DNA of 64,000 nucleotides from Halanaerobium saccharolyticum subsp. saccharolyticum DSM 6643 (GTDB lineage Bacteria; Bacillota; Halanaerobiia; Halanaerobiales; Halanaerobiaceae), in assembly GCF_000350165.1 (NCBI RefSeq), contig NZ_CAUI01000005.1, positions 124,001 to 188,000 of the forward strand, read 5' to 3'. Of the stretch, positions 1,392 to 13,338 are shown one piece after another. The notes beneath the pieces were generated by a model, which saw nothing but the letters and a program-made list of their open reading frames with translations, made no database searches and was not told the origin of the DNA. How positions within the stretch are numbered: the first letter of the stretch is position 1; every line of letters begins with the position of its first letter. Made by a program: the position numbers and the translations under genes.

Positions 1392-1937
1392 ATGCAGACA
1401 GAGAAAATATTAACTGATGTTGAAAAAGCCATCAGAGAACTAATAGATAATGTAAAACCGAAAGCTGGTTCAATTTTCATATTAGGTGGGAGTACAAGTG
1501 AAATTCAGGGTAAAAAAATTGGCTCAGCCACTGATGTAGATTTAGGAGATAAGATTATAAGAAAAATAATGAAAATTTTAAAAGAATACGGGCTTTATCT
1601 TGCTGTACAGGGTTGTGAACACATAAATAGATCTTTAGTTATAGAAAGAGAATGTCAACAGAAATTTTCTTTTAATGAAGTAAATGTAATACCCCATAGA
1701 ACCGCTGGAGGAGCATTTGCTACAGCGGCCTTTAAAGAATTTTCAGAGGCTGTTACTGTGGAAAATATGGAAGCTGATTTAGGAATTGATATAGGTGATG
1801 CTTTAATTGGAATGCATCTTAAAAATATAGCTGTACCAGTTAGATTATCAATTAAAGAAATTGGAGAAGCGCATCTTACTGCTGCAGAAACTAGGTTAAA
1901 ACTTGTAGGTGGAGTTAGAGCAAAATATAGAGATTAA
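1392..1937 (+). CDS. ywlG: UPF0340 / YwlG-like protein (TIGR01440)
   Basis: The 181-aa protein matches the UPF0340 (YwlG) family from end to end. Conserved stretches visible are GGSTSEIQG (around residues 32-40), the segment VQGCEHINRSLVIER near residues 75-90, and the glycine/alanine-rich part HRTAGGAFATAAF near 103-115. The family is widespread in Firmicutes, is about 180 residues long, and its biochemical role is not established as far as I know. ATG 1392 follows a strong AGGAAGGAG site. It is the first gene of a likely operon with the small hypothetical and the iron alcohol dehydrogenase that follow, 19 nt away. The family call is firm; no reaction is assigned. Confidence 0.85.
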   Translation: MQTEKILTDVEKAIRELIDNVKPKAGSIFILGGSTSEIQGKKIGSATDVDLGDKIIRKIMKILKEYGLYLAVQGCEHINRSLVIERECQQKFSFNEVNVIPHRTAGGAFATAAFKEFSEAVTVENMEADLGIDIGDALIGMHLKNIAVPVRLSIKEIGEAHLTAAETRLKLVGGVRAKYRD

Positions 1938-1956
1938 GAAAAGGGAGGCTTTAATT

Positions 1957-2457
1957 TTGAAATATTTGCACCATTGTATTGATAAATTCATTCTTTCACT
2001 TATAGGTCGCTCTTTTACAGTTTTAACTGACACAGAGCCTATTATAAAAAAAGAATTAGCATATTTACCTGAAAATTTCACTGCTGCAGTTGCAGTAGAA
2101 AAAGAATCACCCTCTATTATATTAAAAAAAGAAAATGATGAATTTAAATATTATGGATATCACCATGAGCCAGAAAATATTGATTTAAAATTATATTTTA
2201 AAGATGAAGAATTTGCTTACGAGGTTTTAGGAGCAAAAGAGGGTATAAGACAGGCATTTTCTGAACACAAGATACTATTAGAAGGTAATTTAGAATATGC
2301 AGTTTCTTTAATTTATATTTTTGAGCTTGTTGAGGCATATATCATGTCAGATAAATTTTCTGAAAAAATTTTAGATTATAAGTTTAAAAGAAATATATCT
2401 CGCTTAAAGCTGATATTAAGGGCCTTATTTTTATATAGAGAAAAGGGTGAAATTTAA
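1957..2457 (+). CDS. Small hypothetical protein between ywlG and an alcohol dehydrogenase
   Basis: This 166-aa protein starts at TTG 1957, placed 8 nt after GGGAGG (1943-1948). A longer in-frame version reaching back to 1909 would overlap the upstream gene and has no ribosome site, so I reject it. It has no signal peptide; the pattern is an alpha/beta N-terminal half and a helical, basic C-terminal half. A small ligand-binding (SCP2-like) fold is conceivable but I cannot support it from motifs. Its stop codon TAA overlaps the ATG of the next gene (TAATG at 2455-2459), so the two are translationally coupled. Confidence 0.65.
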   Translation: MKYLHHCIDKFILSLIGRSFTVLTDTEPIIKKELAYLPENFTAAVAVEKESPSIILKKENDEFKYYGYHHEPENIDLKLYFKDEEFAYEVLGAKEGIRQAFSEHKILLEGNLEYAVSLIYIFELVEAYIMSDKFSEKILDYKFKRNISRLKLILRALFLYREKGEI

Positions 2458-3647
2458 TGTATAAGTCGGATTATTTTGAGTTTTTTAGTCCTGTTAAAAT
2501 CATTTCTGGAGAGCATGCCTTATCTACTTTAAATTATGAGCTTGATCGTTTACATGTTAGTAATCCTTTGATATTAACCAATCAAAGCTTAGATGAATTA
2601 AAGATATTAGATACACTATTAACACATATTGAAAATAAGTCAATAAATCAGCGACAGATAATTAAAACTATTCCTAATCAGGCAACACTAGAGATTGTAA
2701 AAAAAGCTGCTCAACGTTATGAAGACCTAGAGTGTGATGGTATTATTGCACTTGGTGGAGAAGCAATTATTGATACAGCTAAAGGGATTAATTTAATGAT
2801 ATCTGAGCAGATTGAAGACTTAAAAAAATTAGCTGGGGTGGAAACTGCTCATGCAGATATGCAGCCCTTTATTGTAATTCCAACTACAAGTGGTACGGGA
2901 TCTGAAGCTGCTTTAACTGCTGTAATTAGTGATCAAAAAAACAAAAATGATCTAGAGTTTGTTTCCAGTAGATTGATACCAGATCTTGCTGTTATAGATC
3001 CGAAGATGACCTTTGCTTTACCGCCAAGACTTACAGCTTCGACTGGAGTAGATGCTCTTGTACACGCTGTTGAAGCCTATACTGGACTTCAGACTAATCC
3101 GCTTAGTGATGCTTATGCTTTTGCTGCTTTAAAGTTAATAGGAAAGAACTTAAGAGAATTAGTTAATGACGTAAACAATCAAAAGTACCGAGTCGCTATG
3201 AATAATGCAGCTGTGATGGCTGGGATAGCCTTTTCCAATTCTCATGCAGGTATTATTCATGCAGTTGGTGATGCTTGTGAAAAAATAGCTGGGGTTTCAC
3301 ATGGTGATGCATTATCTGTACTTTTGCCACATGGAATGTTCTATAACCTTAAGTTTGACTACTGTAGGAATGCGTATCAGGATATTTTGCTTGCTCTAGA
3401 AGGCAGAGATAAATTTATTGATACTGATCCAGATGATCGAGCCTTAATTGCTGTAAATGCTGTGGTTAGTATTTTAAATGAACTTAGGGCTATAACAGGG
3501 ATTCCTGTCACTTTAGAAGAAATAGGGGTAAAAAGAAAACAATTTGAAGATATTATTGATAAAGCAATGCATAATAGTTCTATTTTAAATTCTGCTGGTC
3601 AAGTTAATAGAATAGATATTAAGAGTATTTTAGAAGCATCTTTTTAA
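2457..3647 (+). CDS. Iron-containing alcohol dehydrogenase
   Basis: The 396-aa protein is a group III (iron-type) NAD(P)-dependent alcohol dehydrogenase, which interconverts alcohols and aldehydes or ketones. The nucleotide-binding part shows GGEAIIDTAKG near residues 99-109 and TTSGTGSEA near 143-151. The metal ligands are all present: Asp and His in GVDALVHAVEAYT, His in HAGIIHAVGDA and His in VLLPHGMFYN. It is coupled to the preceding small gene and followed by a terminator. It is only distantly similar in sequence to the DhaT-type enzyme at 52936-54111, so it is a separate subfamily. Substrate is unknown; butanol, ethanol or propanol dehydrogenase are all possible. Confidence 0.85.
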   Translation: MYKSDYFEFFSPVKIISGEHALSTLNYELDRLHVSNPLILTNQSLDELKILDTLLTHIENKSINQRQIIKTIPNQATLEIVKKAAQRYEDLECDGIIALGGEAIIDTAKGINLMISEQIEDLKKLAGVETAHADMQPFIVIPTTSGTGSEAALTAVISDQKNKNDLEFVSSRLIPDLAVIDPKMTFALPPRLTASTGVDALVHAVEAYTGLQTNPLSDAYAFAALKLIGKNLRELVNDVNNQKYRVAMNNAAVMAGIAFSNSHAGIIHAVGDACEKIAGVSHGDALSVLLPHGMFYNLKFDYCRNAYQDILLALEGRDKFIDTDPDDRALIAVNAVVSILNELRAITGIPVTLEEIGVKRKQFEDIIDKAMHNSSILNSAGQVNRIDIKSILEASF

Positions 3648-3653
3648 AGTAAT

Positions 3654-3687
3654 GGACATTTGTCAAAATTGACAAGTGCCCCTTTTT
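3654..3687 (+). terminator. Rho-independent terminator
   Basis: The arms at 3654-3664 and 3671-3681 pair over about 11 bp (one mismatch, one G-U), with a 6-nt loop AAAATT, followed by CCTTTTTATA. It closes the ywlG-to-dehydrogenase unit. Confidence 0.7.
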
Positions 3688-3723
3688 ATAGATTGTTGCA
3701 GATTAATAATGGGGGTGTCCGTA

Positions 3724-4854
3724 GTGGAAGAGGTTATTAAATTTTATGGATTAGGTCCATTTTATTTTAAGTATCATAATAAAACAGTTAGTGGAAGTGC
3801 TTGGGTTTCGAAAAGAGCTTTATCTATTTTTATGTATCTTTTATTGGAGAAAAAAAGAACTGTAAGTGTAGAAGAATTAATCGACATTTTTTGGGAAGGT
3901 TCAGACTTAGAGGATGGTAAAAACAAATTATATAATACTATCTATCTTTTAAGAAGATCTTTAGCAAAAGATGGGATTCCAAAGGATATTATCGAATCAG
4001 TAAGTGGTGGTTATTCAATAAATAATGCTTATGAAATTTGGGCTGACTGGGATTATTTTGAAAAAAAGACTGACCAGATGATTCATGAAAAAGAATTAGA
4101 AGTAGAGGAGCTTGAAGAACTTTTTCAGCTATATAGAGGAGATTTTTTTCCTGCACTACGCTATGAGGATTGGACTGAAATTCAGCGGGAAAAATTAAGA
4201 GAGAATTACTTAAATTTAATAGAAATACTTAGCAATAAATTATATCAGGCACAAAAATTTAGGGATACAGTTAATTATCTGCACCGTGGTATAGAATATG
4301 ATCCTTATCGAGAAAATTTTTATTTACTTTATATTAAAGCTCTTGTTAAATTAGGAAGGATTGCTGAGGCGATAAATAGTTATAAAAAGTGTGAGCAAAT
4401 TCTAAAAGACGAGCTTGATGTTTTGCCAGGTCAAGAATTAAAAAATGAATATCACAAAATTAAATTAAGTCGAGAATTATCTGAAACAATCGAAGAAGAT
4501 TTAACTTTTGAAAATAATGATGATTCTGGCGCGATAATTTGTAATGTTGATGTTTTTAAAAAAATATATGATGTCGAACTGCGTCATGTTAGAAGGCAAA
4601 AAGGGGAATTTGTTTTGATCAAAATTGATTTTAAAGGGGTTAAGCTTCCGATTACTTTTTCTGAGGCCGCCGTTAAAATAAGCTTTATGCTTCGATCTTG
4701 TGACGTCATTTGTATTAATAATTATAAAATATACTTATTGCTGCAGGATATGAATCTGATAAATAGTGGAATAATTATGAATAGAGTTAATTCATTTTGT
4801 GAAGCCTTAGAACTAACTAAAAAACCTTCCATAGATATTAAAGAAATAAGTTAA
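3724..4854 (+). CDS. SARP/BTAD-family transcription regulator with degenerate GGDEF-like C-terminus
   Basis: The protein (376 aa from GTG 3724, 7 nt after GGGGTG) has three parts. Residues about 1-100 form an OmpR-type winged-helix DNA-binding domain (KRTVSVEELIDIFWEG, then YNTIYLLRRSLAKDG). Residues about 110-250 are a bacterial transcriptional activator (BTAD) domain of TPR-like helices (YRGDFFPALRYEDW, LYIKALVKLGRIAEAINSY). The last about 110 residues look like a decayed GGDEF domain (VELRHVRRQKGEFVLIKIDF) without the GGDEF signature, so catalysis is unlikely. A start at ATG 3709 or GTG 3676 is possible, but the latter lies inside the upstream terminator. The gene sits just before the secreted-fibre locus and is its best candidate regulator; that link is an inference. 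Confidence 0.8.
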   Translation: MEEVIKFYGLGPFYFKYHNKTVSGSAWVSKRALSIFMYLLLEKKRTVSVEELIDIFWEGSDLEDGKNKLYNTIYLLRRSLAKDGIPKDIIESVSGGYSINNAYEIWADWDYFEKKTDQMIHEKELEVEELEELFQLYRGDFFPALRYEDWTEIQREKLRENYLNLIEILSNKLYQAQKFRDTVNYLHRGIEYDPYRENFYLLYIKALVKLGRIAEAINSYKKCEQILKDELDVLPGQELKNEYHKIKLSRELSETIEEDLTFENNDDSGAIICNVDVFKKIYDVELRHVRRQKGEFVLIKIDFKGVKLPITFSEAAVKISFMLRSCDVICINNYKIYLLLQDMNLINSGIIMNRVNSFCEALELTKKPSIDIKEIS

Positions 4855-4887: not shown

Positions 4888-4915
4888 AAACCACCTTTTG
4901 GTGGTTTTTCTTTTT
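4888..4915 (+). terminator. Rho-independent terminator
   Basis: AAACCACC (4888-4895), loop TTTT, GGTGGTTT (4900-4907), then TTCTTTTT. A textbook terminator behind the SARP-type regulator. Confidence 0.95.
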
Positions 4916-5045: not shown

Positions 5046-5846
5046 ATGAAATTGAGAGTTATTATTATTATTTTATTTATGATTTTCCTGTCTCAGTTGA
5101 ATGTGGAAGCTGCAGGAGTTTATCTCGGCAGTTATGCTCCAGATGAAGATCAAAGCATAAATATTTCAGTTCCTATCCAAGATATTAAAGCTGAAATAAT
5201 AAAAGTTTATGCTCAGAATAATTATTTTACTTCTGCATCTAAAAAGATCAATTCTACAAACTTAAAAATATTGGGTAGAAATAATTTATTTCCCATAAGT
5301 AGTAGAAGCTTTGAAGCAGAAAAAAATAATTTATTTTTCAATAGAGCAATTAATTTTCAATTTGATTTAAAAAATGAATATGAACCAGGATTATATGAAA
5401 ATATTCTTTATATCGATAATGGAAATAAAATTGATGAATATAAGCTAGTTTTCGAAATTCAACCATGGAAAAAAATGGTTAAAGCTGATCAAAGTACTGC
5501 TGTTATTAATAACTTAAATAATAGAACTCATGAATTATATAGTTCTGGACAGCAAAAATTGATAATAATTTCTAATACAGATTGGAAACTTAAAGTGGTT
5601 TTAAACAATGACTATCAAGATGGAATTTCAATTAAAGTGGCTGCTGATTCTGAAAGCAGAAAAGCGGCTAATTTTGATAGAGATTTTAAAAGTCTTAATA
5701 GTAAAGATGTTTTTATAGCAAGTGGCAGCAGCACAACATTTCTAGATTCTGGGCAGGTAGAAATATTTTATCAATTTAAAATTGATGACTTTAAAAAGAT
5801 TCAGGCTGGAGAAAAAAATTATCAATTTAATTTTATCCTCGAATAA
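5046..5846 (+). CDS. Secreted protein of the chaperone-usher-like locus (candidate minor subunit)
   Basis: This 266-aa protein begins with a type I signal peptide: basic start, a run of Ile/Leu/Phe to about residue 18, and likely cleavage after VEAA near residue 23. The rest is predicted mostly beta (alternating Asn, Ile, Lys, Tyr), with a central segment TDWKLKVVLNN and a final strand KNYQFNFILE. I do not recognise the family. First in a run of four exported proteins that includes a PapD-like chaperone and a usher-like barrel, it could be a minor pilin, tip protein or adhesin. AAGAGGAGGTGG lies just before ATG 5046. A terminator follows at 5869-5893, so it may be expressed at a different level from the next gene. 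Confidence 0.7.
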   Translation: MKLRVIIIILFMIFLSQLNVEAAGVYLGSYAPDEDQSINISVPIQDIKAEIIKVYAQNNYFTSASKKINSTNLKILGRNNLFPISSRSFEAEKNNLFFNRAINFQFDLKNEYEPGLYENILYIDNGNKIDEYKLVFEIQPWKKMVKADQSTAVINNLNNRTHELYSSGQQKLIIISNTDWKLKVVLNNDYQDGISIKVAADSESRKAANFDRDFKSLNSKDVFIASGSSTTFLDSGQVEIFYQFKIDDFKKIQAGEKNYQFNFILE

Positions 5847-5868
5847 TTGCTTTCCAAATGGGCAAATA

Positions 5869-5893
5869 ACATCAGCTCTGCCTGATGTTTTTA
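5869..5893 (+). terminator. Rho-independent terminator between two fibre genes
   Basis: ACATCAG (5869-5875), loop CTCTGC, CTGATGT (5882-5888), then TTTTATA. It separates the two secreted subunit candidates, so it either ends a one-gene transcript or works as a partial attenuator. Confidence 0.8.
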
Positions 5894-5945
5894 TATAAAT
5901 GTTTTGGTGGGAACAAATTTCATAAAATAAAAGGAGGAGTTTTAA

Positions 5946-6779
5946 ATGAGGATTAAAGTATTAGCTTTAACAATGGTATTGGTGATGATATTTGCAGGTG
6001 CAGCAATGGCTCAGTATACCGGGGTGTTTACAAATCCGTTAGAATTTGATGACAGTGCTTATTTTGGTGATGGTGGAGCTTATGCAGCTTATGATCAGCA
6101 TAAAGATGATGATGGTACAGTTTTCTTTAATGATGTAGATTCTGACAACCCTGGTGACTATACTCATTTAGAAGGCTTGAATAGAGATGCAAATTATGAT
6201 ACAAATGGAAGAAATCAAGATGTATCAGTTAGAATAGACACTCGAGCTTATATCCCTTGTTTTTTAGAGCTAAAATTACAGGGTAATCAGGGTACAACTT
6301 CTGCAATTAGTTATGGTCCAAATGCTGATGCTGCGACAAATGCTACTGGTTATATAATTGCATTTGACAATGAAATTGGTGGCTTCCTTGATGAAAACTG
6401 GGTATCATTAGGTCATGGCGGTAATGCTCAAATTAATCCTGCCGATTCTGGCGTATATATTGGTGCTTGTGATATCTTCTCAGTCGAAGTTGTTTCTAAT
6501 GATAACTACAGATATTCTGTAGAAGCTCAAGCTTTAGAAGCACAAGATAATACTGGTGCAGTATTACCAATGCATATGAGAACAAGTTTAGACGCAGGAG
6601 CAACTTGGGAAAGTGGTTTTGATGCATTTACCACAAGTTCACTTGTTAAAGTTGACAAGTATGATGGAGATCCAGGCGAAAAATTAACAGCACTTCATAA
6701 CTTCCGAGTTCCATTCACAATGAGTACAAACCATGGTTACTATAATGGTGAAGTTATCTTTAGAGCAGCTACAATTTAA
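5946..6779 (+). CDS. Secreted acidic protein, candidate major fibre (pilin-like) subunit
   Basis: The 277-aa product has a clear signal peptide (MRIKVLALTMVLVMIFAGAA, cleavage likely after AMA at residue 22). The mature protein is acidic and rich in Asp, Gly, Asn and Tyr, as expected for a protein exposed to high salt, and has two cysteines (IPCFLELK near residue 105 and GACDIFS near 177) that could form a disulphide. It is predicted to be mostly beta, ending in the strand NGEVIFRAATI. I recognise no named family. Position directly before the chaperone and usher, a strong AAGGAGGAG site, and a stable hairpin behind it all suggest an abundant fibre subunit; this is an inference from context. 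Confidence 0.7.
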   Translation: MRIKVLALTMVLVMIFAGAAMAQYTGVFTNPLEFDDSAYFGDGGAYAAYDQHKDDDGTVFFNDVDSDNPGDYTHLEGLNRDANYDTNGRNQDVSVRIDTRAYIPCFLELKLQGNQGTTSAISYGPNADAATNATGYIIAFDNEIGGFLDENWVSLGHGGNAQINPADSGVYIGACDIFSVEVVSNDNYRYSVEAQALEAQDNTGAVLPMHMRTSLDAGATWESGFDAFTTSSLVKVDKYDGDPGEKLTALHNFRVPFTMSTNHGYYNGEVIFRAATI

Positions 6780-6824
6780 CAAGCTCTAAATAATATAAGT
6801 AAATACAACTTTTCCACTACAAGG

Positions 6825-6848
6825 CAGGGGCTGTATATTCAGCCCCTG
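6825..6848 (+). other. Strong intercistronic hairpin without a U-tail
   Basis: CAGGGGCTG (6825-6833) and CAGCCCCTG (6840-6848) form a perfect 9-bp, GC-rich stem with a 6-nt loop in otherwise AT-rich DNA. No T-run follows, so it is a poor terminator. Such a structure between a subunit gene and its assembly genes is typical of an mRNA processing or 3'-end stabilising element giving more subunit than chaperone and usher. Confidence 0.65.
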
Positions 6849-6872
6849 AATAAGTAGAAAGGGGTAATATTT

Positions 6873-7688
6873 ATGAAAAAAATTAATAAAATTTTCAGTT
6901 TTATTTTCTTTAATTTAGTAATTTTCTTAATTTTTATTACAATTTTTTCGGGAATAAGTTGGGCAGCAGTCAGAATTGAACCAGCGAGAATTATTTTGAA
7001 TGCTTTGGATAAAAAACACAGCACTGGTTTAATAGAAGTTATAAATACAGGCGAAGAAGAAATTGAACTCAAAGCACTGCTTAATGATTGGGCACTTGAT
7101 GAAAATGATGGCTTGATTTTTTATGAGGCAGGAGAAACAGATTACAGTTTAGATGGCTTGATAAAATTTAATCCTAGGGAGTTTAAAATACCTCCGGGGA
7201 AAAAACAGATAGTTAGATTTACAATTTCTAATCCAGAAACAGCAGAAACTATTAGAGAACGTAGAGGAGTAGTTTTTTTTGAGCAAGAAACAGGTCTTAT
7301 TGATGCTGCAACAGGTTCCAATGTTAAAAGTCAGGTTGGTTCAGTAATTTATTATATTCCTGAGAGTGTTAAATATGATTTTAAATTTAATGGTTTGAGA
7401 GTATATAAGACTTCAGATTCTATACCTCAGGGAATAACAATTAGAGTTAAAAATGATGGGGAAGCACATTTGCGTTATTACCCTTCTTATAAAATAATTA
7501 ATTCAGAGAATAAAGTTGTTATGGAAAAAAGTTTTAGTGAATTAATAATCCTTCCAGGCTATGAAAGGCAATTTGCTTTTTATTTAGAAGATCGTTTAAA
7601 AAAAGGGGATTATACTTTTATACTCAGCTTCAGACTTTATAATACAAGTTATGAGCCTGAATATCAGATTCCGATAACAATAGAGTAA
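6873..7688 (+). CDS. PapD-like periplasmic fimbrial chaperone
   Basis: The 271-aa protein has a hydrophobic signal peptide ending near AAV (residue 30). The mature part fits two Ig-like domains of periplasmic pilus chaperones: the N-terminal motif VRIEPARIILNA, the strand pattern TGLIEVINTGEEEIELKA, and the family-typical segment FNPREFKIPPGKKQIVRF near residues 90-107, which corresponds to the F1-G1 edge that donates a strand to subunits. The C-terminal domain carries IRVKNDGEAHLRYYPS and a final strand EPEYQIPITIE. In known systems this protein folds secreted subunits and delivers them to the usher. It lies 12 nt before the usher-like gene. Sequence similarity to classical PapD is low, so this rests on motif pattern plus context. 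Confidence 0.78.
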   Translation: MKKINKIFSFIFFNLVIFLIFITIFSGISWAAVRIEPARIILNALDKKHSTGLIEVINTGEEEIELKALLNDWALDENDGLIFYEAGETDYSLDGLIKFNPREFKIPPGKKQIVRFTISNPETAETIRERRGVVFFEQETGLIDAATGSNVKSQVGSVIYYIPESVKYDFKFNGLRVYKTSDSIPQGITIRVKNDGEAHLRYYPSYKIINSENKVVMEKSFSELIILPGYERQFAFYLEDRLKKGDYTFILSFRLYNTSYEPEYQIPITIE

Positions 7689-7700
7689 GTGGGTGAAAAG

Positions 7701-10700
7701 ATGAAAAAATTAATAATATTAATTTTAATATATTTAATCTTTTTTTTCGCAGTTCAAATAGTATTTTCTCAGGGTTTTGAAGAAAGTAATCCTGAAATTG
7801 AAACAAGTATAGTTTTATTAACTCTTTTTGATATAAATAAAGAAATGGTATATGAAAAAAATGATTTTTTTGAATTATTTTATTTTAAAGAGGAAGACTA
7901 TGTCTTATTACCTGCTAATTTGATTGTACCCTACCTTGATGTGGAACTAAATTTTAACAGAGAATTATCTATTTTAATTTTAACAAAAGCAAACAAAGAA
8001 GTAATAATTGACTTAAAAGATAAAAAATATATAGATCATCCAGAATGGGATACTGAAGAGCCAATTATTTATGGAGGCGAATTTTATTTAAGTAAAAAAG
8101 TTTTTTCATATTTAACTAATTATAAGATCAGCTGGAATAATTCATTTCAAGAATTACTTGTAGAGGGTGAGTTTATTGAAGATCTTAGTCAAGATCAAAT
8201 CCTAGATTTAGATGAAAAAAAAGATTTATATCAAAAAGAAAAGGAAGAAATTTTAGGTGATGAACTAAGAGGCTTTCAGCTTAGTTCTGTTCATTACCGA
8301 GTTGAGCTTGAATTAGAAGATAGAATTTTTTCAGAATTGAGCAAAAATATTAGGGGAGATTTAAACTTTTATGGACGTGTTAATAATTGGGCTTATTTTA
8401 TAAATAACAACCTTAGTTATAATTTAAATAATCAAGATGTCGAATATGAGCTTGATAAGATAAAATTTAAATATCAAGAGAATAACATGTTAATTATAGC
8501 AGGTGACCATGATCTTAATTTAAAAAACACAATGGGTAAAATTGATATGCAGGGACTTTATTTCTCTCTACCTGATAGACTTTCATTTAAACTTATACCT
8601 TATACTACTTTAAAAATTAATGTAAAAAAAGGTGATGATTTAAGTATAATTATTAATAATAAATTAGCAAAAAAAGAAGTAATTAAAAGAGATCGAGAGT
8701 TTTTAATAGAAAATTTAGAGTTAAGAGCTGGTTATTTAAATAAAATTGAGATAATTATAATAGATGAAGATGGAAATAAAAGCATTAAAACAAAATATCT
8801 AGCAGGTTCAAGTAATATATTGCAGCCTAAAGTTAAAGAAATAGAACTAATGGCAGGTCGTTTTAGGGATAGTAATTTTTCGGATAATGAGTGGGAAGGT
8901 TATTTTGGATCAATTAGATCTAATTATGCTCTAAATGACAAATTATCATTTAATTTAGAATCTACAATTTATAATGAATCAGAAAATCCAGACAGTGAAT
9001 CAGAAAATGAAATATTATCATCAATAACAGGTTTTGCATTAAGATTAGGTGGTAGCACAGTAATTAATTTAGATTGGCTGGTAGCAGGAGAATTTGATAA
9101 TCTAGAAAATGGTGCTCAAGCTGAACTGTTATTTTCAATGTTAAAAGGATATATTAAAGGTGTATATATATATTTTCCACCTGAAATTGAAGAATATATG
9201 GAAGAAGAAGAAGGGGAAGATAAATCAATTTCAATGAAATTAGATTTAACTAATAACTGGAGTATTAATCCAACTATTGGTCAGAGAAAGACTTTGGAAA
9301 ATCGATTAGATGAAAGCGATTATTACAAATTCAGAGTTATTTATAATCCTAATTGGAGAAATTATAATTCTGTTTCTCTTTTATATGAAGATAACAGACA
9401 AGATTATTTAATTTCTGATACAGAAAACAATTTATATTTATTTGAGGGTAATGAAATTAAAAAAGGAGTTGCTTTAGTTAATAATCTCTATGGTAATACA
9501 TTTAGAATAACAAGTGAGTTGGCTTATTATGATAATGATTTAGAAATATATAATTTTCCCCCAGATAATTATCAAGGAAATTACCAGGATTATGAAGCTG
9601 AACTATCAGTTTATAAAAGAATCAATAATTATTTATTTATATCTTTAAATTATGACGGGGAACAGCAGCGTGACAATTTAGGCTTGAGATATTATGATAG
9701 AATTTATGATGGCCAAATAAGATTATCTTTTTCTGATAGAGCTTCTTTAACTTTATCAACTGAGAGGAGAGAAGAAGAATCAGAAAACTTAATAAGTGAA
9801 GAAAGTTCATTGAAGTTAAAATATTATTTTAACAGAGAATTTAGTGTATCAGCAGAGTTAAATGACTATCAGGGTGAACTTTTAGCAGATTATCAATCAC
9901 TTTTATTATCAGGTGATTATTATTTTCCAGATAACCCTGGTTATATCAGATTGTTTGGAGAATATATAGTTCCAGAAGACGGTCAAAATGGAATTTCTTT
10001 TGGAGGGGCCTATGATATTATTCGTGATGATGAAAGTGGAATAGTAATTGAAGCAGGTAGAGAATATCAAAATTTTCTTAATGGTGAATATGAAGAATAT
10101 GTTACAATCTCTTATTCTCATGCTCTTTCTTTCATAGGAAGTGAAAAGAAAAACACAAGATTTACTGATTTTGAACCAAGACCAATTGTAGCAGGATATG
10201 TATATCTAGATCAAAATTATAATGGAGTTATGGATCCAGGAGAAAAAAGACTTAAAGATATTTCGATGCGTTTAGACAGTATTATGACTGAAACTGATGA
10301 AGATGGTTTCTTTATTTTCAAACCATATTTTAATGATCTATATCTTTTGAATTTTGATTATAGAAATTTAATTGCAGATTATACACCAGTAACTAAAGAA
10401 ATATTAGTTAGAGTTAAAGATAACCAAAATATTATGCAAAATTTTGGTCTTACAATTAATGGTTCAATCAGTGGTAAAGTATATTTAGATAAAAATGCTA
10501 ATGGAAACAAAGATGAAAATGAGGAATATCTTGTCTGGGCAGGTTTAGCAGTAGGAAATTTAAATAAAAAAGATTATACTGATCAAAGAGGAGAATTTTA
10601 TTTTGAAAATATTCCTTTAGGATATCACAAACTGAATCTTTTAAAAGAATCTCTACCAAAAGGAACTAGACCATTAAATGGATATGAACAGGATATTTAT

Positions 10701-10760
10701 ATTACCGAGGATCGACTTGATCATCATGATATTGATATTCCAATAATCTATGGAGATTAA
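7701..10760 (+). CDS. Usher-like outer-membrane beta-barrel protein
   Basis: The 1019-aa protein starts at ATG 7701 (GGGTG 5 nt upstream; a GTG at 7689 is less likely) with a signal peptide ending near FSQ (residue 25). Residues about 60-155 resemble copper-amine-oxidase-type N-terminal domains. Residues about 300-370 have the layout of a usher plug domain (SIIINNKLAKKEV, then LELRAGYLNKIEIIIIDEDG). The long middle part is made of alternating beta strands rich in Tyr and Asn, as in a large barrel. The end has two beta-sandwich modules with SdrD-like calcium-type loops (GYVYLDQNYNGVMDPGE near residue 832; GKVYLDKNANGNKDENEE near 924), as seen at the C-end of archaic-type ushers. It should secrete and assemble the subunits encoded upstream. 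Alternative: another surface barrel protein. Confidence 0.75.
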   Translation: MKKLIILILIYLIFFFAVQIVFSQGFEESNPEIETSIVLLTLFDINKEMVYEKNDFFELFYFKEEDYVLLPANLIVPYLDVELNFNRELSILILTKANKEVIIDLKDKKYIDHPEWDTEEPIIYGGEFYLSKKVFSYLTNYKISWNNSFQELLVEGEFIEDLSQDQILDLDEKKDLYQKEKEEILGDELRGFQLSSVHYRVELELEDRIFSELSKNIRGDLNFYGRVNNWAYFINNNLSYNLNNQDVEYELDKIKFKYQENNMLIIAGDHDLNLKNTMGKIDMQGLYFSLPDRLSFKLIPYTTLKINVKKGDDLSIIINNKLAKKEVIKRDREFLIENLELRAGYLNKIEIIIIDEDGNKSIKTKYLAGSSNILQPKVKEIELMAGRFRDSNFSDNEWEGYFGSIRSNYALNDKLSFNLESTIYNESENPDSESENEILSSITGFALRLGGSTVINLDWLVAGEFDNLENGAQAELLFSMLKGYIKGVYIYFPPEIEEYMEEEEGEDKSISMKLDLTNNWSINPTIGQRKTLENRLDESDYYKFRVIYNPNWRNYNSVSLLYEDNRQDYLISDTENNLYLFEGNEIKKGVALVNNLYGNTFRITSELAYYDNDLEIYNFPPDNYQGNYQDYEAELSVYKRINNYLFISLNYDGEQQRDNLGLRYYDRIYDGQIRLSFSDRASLTLSTERREEESENLISEESSLKLKYYFNREFSVSAELNDYQGELLADYQSLLLSGDYYFPDNPGYIRLFGEYIVPEDGQNGISFGGAYDIIRDDESGIVIEAGREYQNFLNGEYEEYVTISYSHALSFIGSEKKNTRFTDFEPRPIVAGYVYLDQNYNGVMDPGEKRLKDISMRLDSIMTETDEDGFFIFKPYFNDLYLLNFDYRNLIADYTPVTKEILVRVKDNQNIMQNFGLTINGSISGKVYLDKNANGNKDENEEYLVWAGLAVGNLNKKDYTDQRGEFYFENIPLGYHKLNLLKESLPKGTRPLNGYEQDIYITEDRLDHHDIDIPIIYGD

Positions 10761-10767
10761 GTTATCC

Positions 10768-10823
10768 CAGGGCAGAAATGTCCTGTTTAGCCCCGGCTTA
10801 AATGCTGGGGTTTATTATTTTTT
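10768..10823 (+). terminator. Double hairpin terminator after the usher-like gene
   Basis: A first stem CAGGGCA/TGTCCTG with a GAAA tetraloop (10768-10785) is followed by AGCCCCGGC (10789-10797), loop TTAAAT, GCTGGGGTT (10804-10812), then TATTATTTTTTT. The second stem plus T-run is the terminator; the first may be a stabilising hairpin. Confidence 0.85.
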
Positions 10824-10939: not shown

Positions 10940-12145
10940 ATGGGAGCTTTAGACGGGATTAAAGTTATTGACTTAAGCCATGTATTGGCAGCACCATTTG
11001 CAACAATGATTATGGCAGACTTAGGTGCAGAGGTTGTTAAGGTAGAGCCACCATTTGGTGATGATTCAAGACAATTTGGTCCTTTTGTTGAAGATGAAGC
11101 TGGAGAACAGCAGAGCGGCTATTTTATTAGTATTAACCGCAACAAAAAAAGTATTGTTTTAAACTTGAAGGAAGAAAAAGGTAAAGAAATATTAAGAGAT
11201 TTAATAAGTGATGCAGATGTGGTTGTAGAAAATTACCGCCCTACCACAATGAAAAAACTTGGTTTTTCATATGAAGAAATGAAAAAAATTAAAAAAGATA
11301 TAATATACTGTTCAATTTGCGGATTTGGTCATGATGCTTTAGAAGAATATGCCAGTAAACCTGCTTATGATATGGTAGCTCAGGCATATAGTGGTTTGAT
11401 GAGTATCACCGGACCTGAAGGTGGAGAACCCTGCCGTGTTGGTAGTTCTATTGGTGATATTATGGCAGGACACCAGGCTGTTATTGGTATTTTAAGTGCC
11501 TTACGTCATCGTGATCGAACTGGTAAAGGACAGCATGTTGATATGTCAATGGTAGATGGACTTGTTTCTGTTTTAGAAAATGCTATTGCTCGCTATACAA
11601 TGGAGGGAGAGATTCCTGGTCCACTTGGTGGAGCACATCCAACAATTGTACCATTCCAGTCATTTAAAACTAAAGATAATTATATTGTAACTCCAATTGG
11701 GAATGATAGTTTATGGAAAAAGTTCTGTGATGCTCTTGAAATGCCTGAGTTAGCAGATGATGAAAGATTTAAAACAAATCCATTAAGAGCAGAAAACAAG
11801 GATGAGCTAATACCAATTCTTGCAAAAAGAATAAAAGAAAAAAATACTGCTGAATGGGAAGAAGTTTTCGAAGAATATGGACTCCCTTATTCACCAGTTA
11901 ATACAGTAGATAAAGTTGTCGAAGATGACAACTTGAAATACAGAGATATGATAGTGGATCTTGAACAGCCTGGAATTGGTAAAGTTAAGGTTGCTGGTTC
12001 CCCATTCCACTTGTCAGAGACCCCAGGAGAAATTAAAAGTCATGCCCCTGCAAAAGGTGAGCATACTGATTCAGTGCTTAAAGGAAGTTTAGGTTTAACT
12101 GATGCTCAAATTAAAGAAATGAAAAGCCAAGGAATTATTGGCTAA
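10940..12145 (+). CDS. CaiB/BaiF-type (class III) CoA-transferase
   Basis: The 401-aa protein is a family III CoA-transferase, which moves CoA between organic acids through a mixed anhydride on an aspartate. Visible signatures are the N-terminal GALDGIKVIDLSHVLAAPFA, GAEVVKVEPP near residue 30, VVENYRP near 95, and the catalytic Asp144 in PAYDMVAQAYSG. The C-terminal part carries LPYSPVNTVDKVVEDD, typical of the family. It is the first gene of an operon with the two malonate transporter subunits (34 nt away) and has a strong AGGAGG site. Context suggests a dicarboxylate, perhaps malonate, as acceptor; the sequence alone does not fix the substrate. Confidence 0.88.
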   Translation: MGALDGIKVIDLSHVLAAPFATMIMADLGAEVVKVEPPFGDDSRQFGPFVEDEAGEQQSGYFISINRNKKSIVLNLKEEKGKEILRDLISDADVVVENYRPTTMKKLGFSYEEMKKIKKDIIYCSICGFGHDALEEYASKPAYDMVAQAYSGLMSITGPEGGEPCRVGSSIGDIMAGHQAVIGILSALRHRDRTGKGQHVDMSMVDGLVSVLENAIARYTMEGEIPGPLGGAHPTIVPFQSFKTKDNYIVTPIGNDSLWKKFCDALEMPELADDERFKTNPLRAENKDELIPILAKRIKEKNTAEWEEVFEEYGLPYSPVNTVDKVVEDDNLKYRDMIVDLEQPGIGKVKVAGSPFHLSETPGEIKSHAPAKGEHTDSVLKGSLGLTDAQIKEMKSQGIIG

Positions 12146-12178
12146 AAATAATATTAGATAAAAGTTTTAAGGAGTGAG

Positions 12179-12538
12179 ATGATGGAAATTATCGGTATGG
12201 GCTTTGTAGCATTTTTTATGCTGCTTGGCTCATTTTTAGGGAGAATTTTAGGTCAGTTCATTGGAACTGGTGGAGATGTTGGTGGAGTTGGACTTGCAAT
12301 GTTATTTATGGTTTTAACAGTAAATTATCTTGAAAACAGAGGCAGAATGTTTAAACCTAGAACTGAAAATGGTATTAAGTTCTTAAGTGCTTTATATATT
12401 CCGATTATTGTTGCTATGGCTGCACGTTTAAATGTTGTTGGTGCTATTAATGGTGGGTTAGTTGCTATTTTAGCAGGTGGTGTAGCGACAATAGGTGCAA
12501 TGTTTTTAGTACCTTTATTATCAAAACTAAAAAAATAA
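12179..12538 (+). CDS. madL: Malonate transporter subunit MadL
   Basis: A 119-aa membrane protein with about four hydrophobic segments and glycine-rich joints (LGRILGQFIGTGGDVGGVG near residues 21-40). Length, the GGDVGGVG motif and the pairing with MadM match the MadL family of sodium-dependent malonate:Na+ symporters. Two ATG codons in a row (12179 and 12182) follow GGAGTG; either could be used. It has no function without MadM, which starts 30 nt downstream. No malonate decarboxylase genes are in the window, so the imported acid is probably activated by the CoA-transferase upstream. Confidence 0.85.
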   Translation: MMEIIGMGFVAFFMLLGSFLGRILGQFIGTGGDVGGVGLAMLFMVLTVNYLENRGRMFKPRTENGIKFLSALYIPIIVAMAARLNVVGAINGGLVAILAGGVATIGAMFLVPLLSKLKK

Positions 12539-12567
12539 TTTTATTAAAGAAACGGAAGTGATTTAAA

Positions 12568-13338
12568 TTGTTAACAGATGCATTTAATTCTTTTGCTGGA
12601 GCAGATCATTTAATTATTTCTATAGCTCTAGTTGCATTAATAATGTTTATAACTAAGAAAATTTCGATTATGCTGGGAGAAGAGCGAATAGCTTCGGCTC
12701 TTGCAATTATTACAGGTTTAGTCTTAGCATTCATTGGTGGTAAAGTAACTGGTGGAAGTAGTGGACTGGCAGATATATCAATTTTCAGTGGTGCTGGTAT
12801 TGGTTTATTAGGTGGTAGTATGCTGAGAGACTATACAATTATCTCTACTGCGTATGGTGTTAAACTTAAAAACCTTAAAAAAGCTGGCCCAGTAGGAGTA
12901 ATTTCTTTATTAGTGGGAGTAATTTTCTCTTTTATAGTTGGTAGTGGAGTTGCTATGGCTTTAGGTTATACAGATCCGGCTGAAGTTACAACAATTGGTG
13001 CTGGAGCAGTTACCTTTATTGTTGGTCCTGTAACAGGAACCGCACTAGGTGTAAGCTCGGAGATTATTGCTATTTCTGTAGCTGCTGGATTGGTAAAATC
13101 AATTATGACCATGGTAATAACACCTTTCATAGCAGATCTAGTTGGCCTTGATAATCCGACTTCTGCCATGGTTTATGGGGGATTAATTGGAACAACAAGT
13201 GGTGTTGCAGGTGGTCTTGCAGCAACAGCACCTGAGCTAGTTCCATATGGAGCAATGACTGCAACTTTTTATACTGGATTAGGAACTCTAATAGTACCAT
13301 CACTTGGATTTATTATAATTAGATCTATTTTGCTATAA
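12568..13338 (+). CDS. madM: Malonate transporter subunit MadM
   Basis: The 256-aa protein is very hydrophobic with about seven to eight membrane segments and matches MadM, the larger subunit of the MadLM malonate/sodium symporter. Typical parts are MLGEERIASALAIITGLVLA (about residues 35-54), GGSMLRDYTIISTAYG (near 85-100) and GAGAVTFIVGPVTGTALG (near 147-164). It begins at TTG 12568 after GGAAGTG, and a strong terminator follows at 13365. MadM-like proteins can carry other small dicarboxylates, so malonate is the family expectation rather than proven here. Confidence 0.87.
   Translation: MLTDAFNSFAGADHLIISIALVALIMFITKKISIMLGEERIASALAIITGLVLAFIGGKVTGGSSGLADISIFSGAGIGLLGGSMLRDYTIISTAYGVKLKNLKKAGPVGVISLLVGVIFSFIVGSGVAMALGYTDPAEVTTIGAGAVTFIVGPVTGTALGVSSEIIAISVAAGLVKSIMTMVITPFIADLVGLDNPTSAMVYGGLIGTTSGVAGGLAATAPELVPYGAMTATFYTGLGTLIVPSLGFIIIRSILL

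Follow-up and report, generated by a model that had tools for sequence, protein, structure and literature searches.

A putative chaperone-usher fibre operon in Halanaerobium saccharolyticum and its relatives across the Bacillota

Four exported proteins encoded side by side

We analysed a 64,000-nucleotide stretch of DNA from Halanaerobium saccharolyticum subsp. saccharolyticum DSM 6643 (Bacillota; contig NZ_CAUI01000005.1, positions 124,001 to 188,000; hereafter the window), concentrating on four genes at window positions 5046-10760, in which a sequence-only reading had seen a chaperone-usher-like fibre locus. Chaperone-usher machinery is what E. coli uses for building adhesive hairs. The four open reading frames (ORFs) were confirmed on the same (+) strand; they are closely packed, with spacers of 99, 93 and 12 bases between genes 1 and 2, 2 and 3, and 3 and 4, respectively, and each starts with a Sec-type signal peptide, as read from the sequence:

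5046..5846, + strand: gene 1, 266 amino acids (aa), exported tip or minor subunit candidate, apparently with two beta domains and an SNTDWKLKV motif
5946..6779, + strand: gene 2, 277 aa, main fibre subunit candidate, with an Asp-rich N-terminal part followed by a pilin-like domain
6873..7688, + strand: gene 3, 271 aa, periplasmic chaperone with two immunoglobulin (Ig)-like domains
7701..10760, + strand: gene 4, 1019 aa, outer-membrane usher

While the ORF list starts gene 4 at GTG 7689, the ATG at 7701 is preceded by a Shine-Dalgarno-like, ribosome-binding-like GGGTG, and we therefore retained the 1019 aa that the sequence-only reading had also given. That reading had taken the four adjacent exported proteins for a set, a view borne out by the ORFs, their signal peptides and tight spacing, and an order that is kept in other species.

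Usher, chaperone and subunits

The AlphaFold2 (AF2) model of the gene 4 protein was built with 12 natural relatives and has a mean predicted local distance difference test (pLDDT) score of 79.5 and a predicted template modelling (pTM) score of 0.54. Along the chain, we distinguish the following parts:

7800..8168, + strand: front domain, probable usher N-terminal domain, residues 34-156; Cu_amine_oxidN1-type match (PF07833, E 5.6e-5, just under the cut-off)
8274..10136, + strand: predicted beta-barrel, residues 192-812, from the AF2 strand list
8601..8807, + strand: predicted six-stranded plug, residues 301-369, between barrel strands 6 and 7 (AF2; aligned with the FimD and archaic plugs)
10188..10487, + strand: first C-terminal beta-sandwich, residues 830-929 (SdrD_B, PF17210, E 3.7e-8; collinear with the C-terminal region of archaic ushers)
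10542..10751, + strand: second C-terminal beta-sandwich, residues 948-1017 (PF13715, E 1.7e-4; AF2)

In FimD and PapC, the plug is inserted at the same point, after the sixth barrel strand. The strand-rich part of the model is ∼110 residues longer than that of FimD, and the length of the barrel after the plug varies from 351 to 485 residues across the usher family. As modelled, the gene 4 protein has the barrel, the strand 6/7 plug and the periplasmic terminal domains (the N-terminal one in part) of ushers of the chaperone-usher superfamily, and the two C-terminal beta-sandwich modules that the sequence-only reading had described were recovered by PF17210, PF13715 and AF2. In a Foldseek search of the Protein Data Bank (PDB), the top 17 matches of the model were all FimD or PapC (best E 1.3e-26), and the next class, LptD, followed from 1.9e-8. 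VIA aligned 622 residues to FimD (Z 17.0; the N-terminal domain lies outside this alignment), with other barrels reaching up to Z 15 over shorter lengths. Moreover, a profile of 28 Bacillota ushers matched (i) five E. coli K-12 ushers at 94.2% in hhalign, in an alignment that begins where the N-terminal domain ends and extends through the plug, and (ii) four archaic ushers at 97.3% (E 2.4e-11) over 521 columns reaching the C-terminal domain; shuffled control profiles scored at most 0.2%.

These comparisons bear on whether the large protein could be an outer-membrane barrel of some other type (LptD-, TonB- or SlpA-like) that lies beside Ig-fold proteins by chance, which we consider very improbable. 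LptD and TonB-type receptors do appear lower in the structure lists, and PF00577, the Pfam Usher family, fails to recognise the protein, but ushers are ahead by ∼18 orders of magnitude in E value, the plug position and the C-terminal domains are collinear with those of archaic ushers, and a chaperone gene adjoins the usher gene in ∼25 loci. PF00577 had no match in the window's own genome and none above its cut-off in any of 249 Bacillota genomes; the single weak match, to an usher in genome G232 (E 1.6e-4 in the genome search, 1.6e-3 in a protein scan), adjoins one of the matches to our chaperone profile. Because profile and structure methods detect the usher family, we rejected the silence of PF00577 as a sign of usher absence. 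The PapC_N, Usher and PapC_C domains had no match in the window usher, and TcfC (PF16967) and CooC_C (PF15976), which are present in EcpC, are absent from the window and family ushers.

The unusual amine-oxidase-type front domain of the sequence-only reading did not hold up: a genuine amine oxidase domain was rejected, the match being a short N-terminal module placed like the usher N-terminal domain. The last ∼27 residues of this module, from 131, align with FimD from residue 135; because of this aligned end and its position, the module most likely corresponds to the N-terminal domain of ushers, the remainder presumably being equivalent too.

The gene 3 protein, for which PapD-like motifs had been noted, was modelled by AF2 as two beta-sandwiches (pLDDT 87). 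Its first Foldseek match in the PDB was WxLIP of Enterococcus (E 3.7e-12), followed by EcpB, CfaA, PapD and CsuC. VIA likewise placed WxLIP highest (Z 15.3), with CfaA (Z 14.1), CsuC, FimC and PapD at Z 11.7-14.1 over both domains and ∼180-200 residues, whereas unrelated Ig proteins aligned over only ∼100 residues. Furthermore, Bacillota chaperones matched archaic chaperones at 98.7% in hhalign (E 4e-16, both domains), classical ones at 93.2% and EcpB at 92.4%, with shuffled controls reaching at most 0.6%; EcpB was also found from the chaperone by sequence profile (E 2.6e-4). One Pro is invariant across all chaperones of the superfamily (Pro60 in EcpB; PMC4654587), and chaperone residue P101 aligns with it in 26 of 27 sequences, so that the protein combines two Ig-like domains with the invariant Pro, as chaperones of the superfamily do. 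R201 aligns with Arg148 of EcpB (20/27 overall, 18/18 in the core clade) and lies within an NxGxxHxR signature common to window-type and archaic chaperones. Searches of Pfam, NCBIfam and PDB sequences with the window proteins alone returned only WxLIP, Cu_amine_oxidN1, SdrD_B and weak PapD_N/EcpB matches.

Chaperones clasp pilins by the C-terminal strand. The main subunit ends in a motif of this kind:

6735..6776, + strand: C-terminal beta-strand motif of the main subunit, GYYNGEVIFRAATI, with G at -14

Among 20 homologues located next to chaperones, 19 have G at -14, the exception being a disrupted copy; the same holds for 9/9 classical pilins of E. coli K-12, compared with just 29/263 of the other ORFs (for the family, Fisher p 1e-15). 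In remote loci, we found several subunits of 160-190 aa with C-termini such as AGEYSSTVTYTLVTL, and in three loci (L108, L112 and L113) four pilin-like genes surround one chaperone, while the usher is encoded on the other strand; in these three, W-x-L-x-V (GWALKV, GWELKV) occurs in the first subunits and is reminiscent of the first WxL motif. A pooled, wider subunit set matched archaic SCPU pilins at 88.9% in hhalign over 153 columns, while PF05229 (SCPU) had no match in the window subunits and reached one distant relative at E 0.16. The gene 1 protein matches the gene 1 proteins of remote Bacillota loci (hhalign 98.1%, E 1.3e-13), and its homologues hold the first position there as well. The pilin-like domain of the main subunit (5946-6779) is preceded by an Asp-rich N-terminal stretch of ∼75 residues, which is absent from the relative in 'Clostridia bacterium DTU065' and is perhaps a halophile adaptation.

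Distribution, descent and the WxL/WxLIP link

Relatives of the usher occur in 13 of 38 genomes of the order. The window's gene order (tip, subunit, chaperone, usher) recurs in five Halanaerobium genomes (G010, G012, G016, G018 and G019), while in G037 a chaperone and an usher lie where a contig ends, and G007 holds a full but distant set. Beyond the order, subunit, chaperone and usher are found in 'Clostridia bacterium DTU065' (L051), and the chaperone profile was matched in 37 of 249 Bacillota genomes. Near these matches lie ushers and pilin-like subunits, often in the same order (L097-L103, L111, L118), which in total is seen in ∼16 loci from several Bacillota families. Protein identities of the four genes to their closest Halanaerobium relatives are 50-65%, and ratios of nonsynonymous to synonymous polymorphism per site (pN/pS) of 0.33-0.49 against G016 indicate purifying selection.

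The gene set is bracketed by hairpins and preceded by a possible regulator:

3676..4854, + strand: BTAD/SARP-type transcription factor, possible operon regulator (PF03704, E 1.3e-21)
4888-4907: intrinsic-terminator-like hairpin before the gene set (consensus scan)
10789..10812, + strand: intrinsic-terminator-like hairpin after the usher (consensus scan)

The consensus scan gave 10 such hairpins in the scanned region, with 2.5 expected. Given the order kept across species, the purifying selection, the bracketing hairpins and the tight spacing, the arrangement of the four genes is not due to chance. In G016, too, the fibre genes have a BTAD/SARP-type gene (60% identity) upstream, and its window counterpart may regulate the operon. 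The flanking regions (1392-3647 and 10940-13338) are metabolic and, by their sequences, unrelated to fibres; we take their genes to be a CitX/CitG-like or MdcB-like pair, an iron-type alcohol dehydrogenase, a CoA-transferase and two small membrane proteins.

In the usher tree, Bacillota ushers split from archaic plus classical ushers with 100/100 support on a branch of 1.3 changes per site; they lie outside the archaic clade (98/97), and the window usher groups with Halanaerobiales inside the Bacillota side. We class the Bacillota ushers as a new deep branch of the chaperone-usher superfamily, outside the archaic, classical and alternative classes. Chaperone trees that included EcpB, WxLIP and K-12 sequences had long branches and left the deep forks unresolved. 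The likeness to archaic ushers claimed by the sequence-only reading stands as homology (97.3%), while membership of the archaic class does not, the Bacillota ushers being a sister branch. Similarly, its little-described branch in a two-membrane Firmicute has proved deep and separate, yet it is no one-off, being present in many Bacillota lineages.

The split also bears on whether the operon was recently acquired from a Proteobacterium. Such systems are classically proteobacterial and are patchy in Bacillota (37/249 genomes), but the long, fully supported branch, the grouping of the window usher with Halanaerobiales, and a GC content and skew like those of the surrounding DNA all speak against recent transfer, as does the finding that no close proteobacterial relative was among the matches listed in a contig scan with two short patterns; we give this explanation hardly any credence. 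A structural study of 2015 (PMC4654587) confines chaperone-usher systems to Proteobacteria, Cyanobacteria and Deinococcus-Thermus, with archaic systems assigned to the same three groups. In the open-access literature that we searched, we found no chaperone-usher system for Halanaerobiales or other diderm Firmicutes.

In some genomes of the order, ushers of 1011-1032 aa are orphans: they have the plug and the C-terminal modules, but no chaperone gene is adjacent (L016 and L022-L026, in G019, G025, G013, G024, G011 and G030). They form a clade of their own (100/100). A chaperone was undetectable in G011, G013, G024 and G025, and G030 gave one weak partial match in a 1211-aa ORF. These ushers may have been put to another use.

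A second fibre-like gene set was seen in Halanaerobiales (L017/L152 in G012, L146 in G015, L147 and L150 in G004, L148 in G002, L149 in G003) and was not found in the window's genome. It comprises pilin-like subunits (C-termini such as IAGEYRGEIIYTVSAV), a 440-aa unknown protein, a 505-515 aa protein with chaperone/WxLIP-like domains (WxLIP_HBD, E 4e-5) and, in L017/L152, L146, L148 and L150, a secretin of ∼390 aa (PF00263, E 5e-36). This set may be a chaperone-secretin pathway, with a secretin in the usher's place. In G016 (Halanaerobium saccharolyticum WC1; L018, 1814-4976), a curli operon (curlin-repeat proteins, CsgF and CsgG) separates the BTAD regulator from the chaperone-usher operon; in G012 (L152, 6233-9430), such an operon adjoins the secretin set. 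Two or three fibre systems, among the curli, chaperone-usher and secretin sets, can therefore be adjacent.

WxLIP is the surface binding partner of WxL proteins, and the paper that defined it predicts that a hairpin strand of WxLIP is inserted into WxL, leaving chaperones unmentioned (PMC10599100). The Bacillota chaperone profile matched a nine-sequence WxLIP profile at 99.1% in hhalign (E 5e-19, both domains; reversed control 1.9%), whereas WxLIP compared directly with classical, alternative or archaic chaperones scored 0.1-0.7%, that is, no detectable similarity. Because it matches both WxLIP and the proteobacterial chaperones, the Bacillota chaperone bridges the two groups, although part of this bridging may stem from the greater diversity of its alignment. 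The window protein itself falls outside the WxLIP family, with 19 bits against a PF06030 cut-off of 27.3 and no C-terminal helix. In monoderm loci, a small WxL gene lies directly before the WxLIP gene in most clusters examined, like a subunit before its chaperone. WxL and pilins matched at 84-86% for distant small subunits, 16-26% for a pooled set and 2.4% for core subunits, so that homology between them is suggestive at best.

Two readings draw on this likeness. In the first, the usher-like pore and the two-Ig protein would export and stabilise non-polymeric surface proteins, much like a WxL/WxLIP complex set in an outer membrane; the chaperone would remain with its clients as a scaffold, and no fibre would form. 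The chaperone's closest relative in PDB fold and in sequence is indeed WxLIP, and related genomes have orphan ushers without a detectable chaperone; however, our chaperone ends with its second domain and lacks the C-terminal membrane helix of WxLIP, it is homologous to archaic pilus chaperones as well, the subunits bear the pilin C-terminal motif, and each operon of L108, L112 and L113 encodes four small pilin-like subunits, which suits the building of a fibre. We judge this scaffold unlikely. In the second, the sequence comparisons suggest, short of proof, a common origin for the WxL/WxLIP and chaperone-usher systems. The chaperone-usher system of diderm Firmicutes would then link pilus assembly with the monoderm WxL/WxLIP complexes, WxLIP being a membrane-anchored former chaperone and WxL a wall-bound former pilin left after loss of the outer membrane and usher; we put this forward tentatively, at somewhat less than even odds.

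A proposed pathway and its place among known systems

We propose, with a probability of about 0.88, that the four genes specify a complete chaperone-usher pathway for assembling a surface fibre on a Firmicute with two membranes, and that this pathway belongs to a deep separate branch and is not a recent import from Proteobacteria. On the established mechanism of homologous systems, Sec would take both subunits across the inner membrane; the gene 3 chaperone would lend a beta-strand to the incomplete Ig fold of a subunit, hold the subunit's C-terminal strand and hand the subunit to the gene 4 usher in the outer membrane; and the usher plug would open, allowing subunits to join by donor-strand exchange and exit through the barrel, with the gene 1 protein probably at the fibre tip. 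By analogy with the same systems, we infer donor-strand exchange itself, the N-terminal donor strand of the subunits, the tip role, polymerisation and a function in adhesion or biofilm formation. The genome also encodes an Omp85/BamA homologue (E 1.8e-52) that could insert the usher barrel.

Several observations weigh against this proposal. For the usher, the pTM of the model is only 0.54, and the modelled barrel has ∼29-30 strands (AF2; the number is uncertain) versus 24 in FimD and PapC. For the chaperone, the 'super-conserved' Arg89 of CsuC and EcpB falls on G132, and Tyr169 of EcpB is not conserved in the family, as read from the alignment; since the R201 column is kept and the Arg89 column falls on G132 next to a basic residue 131 (R/K in 18/18 of the core clade), the carboxylate anchor appears partly conserved. 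For the subunits, the core profile alone scored 1.5% against archaic SCPU pilins in hhalign, and the window subunits matched no Pfam pilin family or any other Pfam family, as the sequence-only reading had anticipated. In a cross-control, the subunit and chaperone profiles, both Ig-like families from these loci, matched at 92%; scores near 90% are therefore not specific alone, and we discounted them where length or structure gave no support. Finally, the fibre and the chaperone-subunit complexes are predictions from genes and single-protein models. On balance, the earlier chaperone-usher interpretation is supported as largely right; of the two structural outcomes that it had named as refuting, a large protein without barrel and plug and a 271-aa protein without an Ig-type chaperone fold, neither was obtained.

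As a conserved diderm-Firmicute branch that is invisible to Pfam, the family would make the pathway older and wider than annotation suggests, and it offers (i) an outgroup for rooting the archaic, alternative and classical classes, (ii) a surface-fibre system to be considered in the debated question of an outer membrane in the Firmicute ancestor, and (iii) a testable idea of how the WxL/WxLIP complexes found in lactobacilli and enterococci arose.

Among known systems, WxL/WxLIP of monoderm Firmicutes resembles the window locus in the homology of WxLIP with both chaperone domains and in the WxL gene directly before WxLIP; unlike the window set, it has no usher, its WxLIP has a membrane helix, and WxL binds peptidoglycan. 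Alternative systems (CS1/ECP) share the chaperone fold (CfaA), the sequence-profile match to EcpB and, in EcpC, a CarboxypepD_reg-like C-terminal domain, whereas no profile link was obtained to EcpC (hhalign 0.8%, from a single sequence and hence a weak test) or to EcpA (single sequence). Classical systems (FimC/FimD, PapD/PapC) share the strand 6/7 plug, the fold matches and the pilin G at -14, but identity is ∼10%, PF00577, PapC_N and PapC_C are unmatched, and the window usher lies outside the classical clade. From archaic (sigma) systems (CsuC/CsuD, SCPU), the locus differs in that its usher falls outside the archaic plus classical group (100/100), is ∼200 aa longer and carries C-terminal modules of SdrD_B type, its subunits fall short of the SCPU model, and its tip-like gene comes first, whereas the archaic tip gene comes last. 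It nevertheless shares with them near full-length homology of both chaperone (98.7%) and usher (97.3%), an usher plug and C-terminal domain, the DW, PxxxxxxGxxQxxR and NxGxxHxR signatures of the chaperone, and a subunit-chaperone-usher order in which the main subunit precedes the chaperone.

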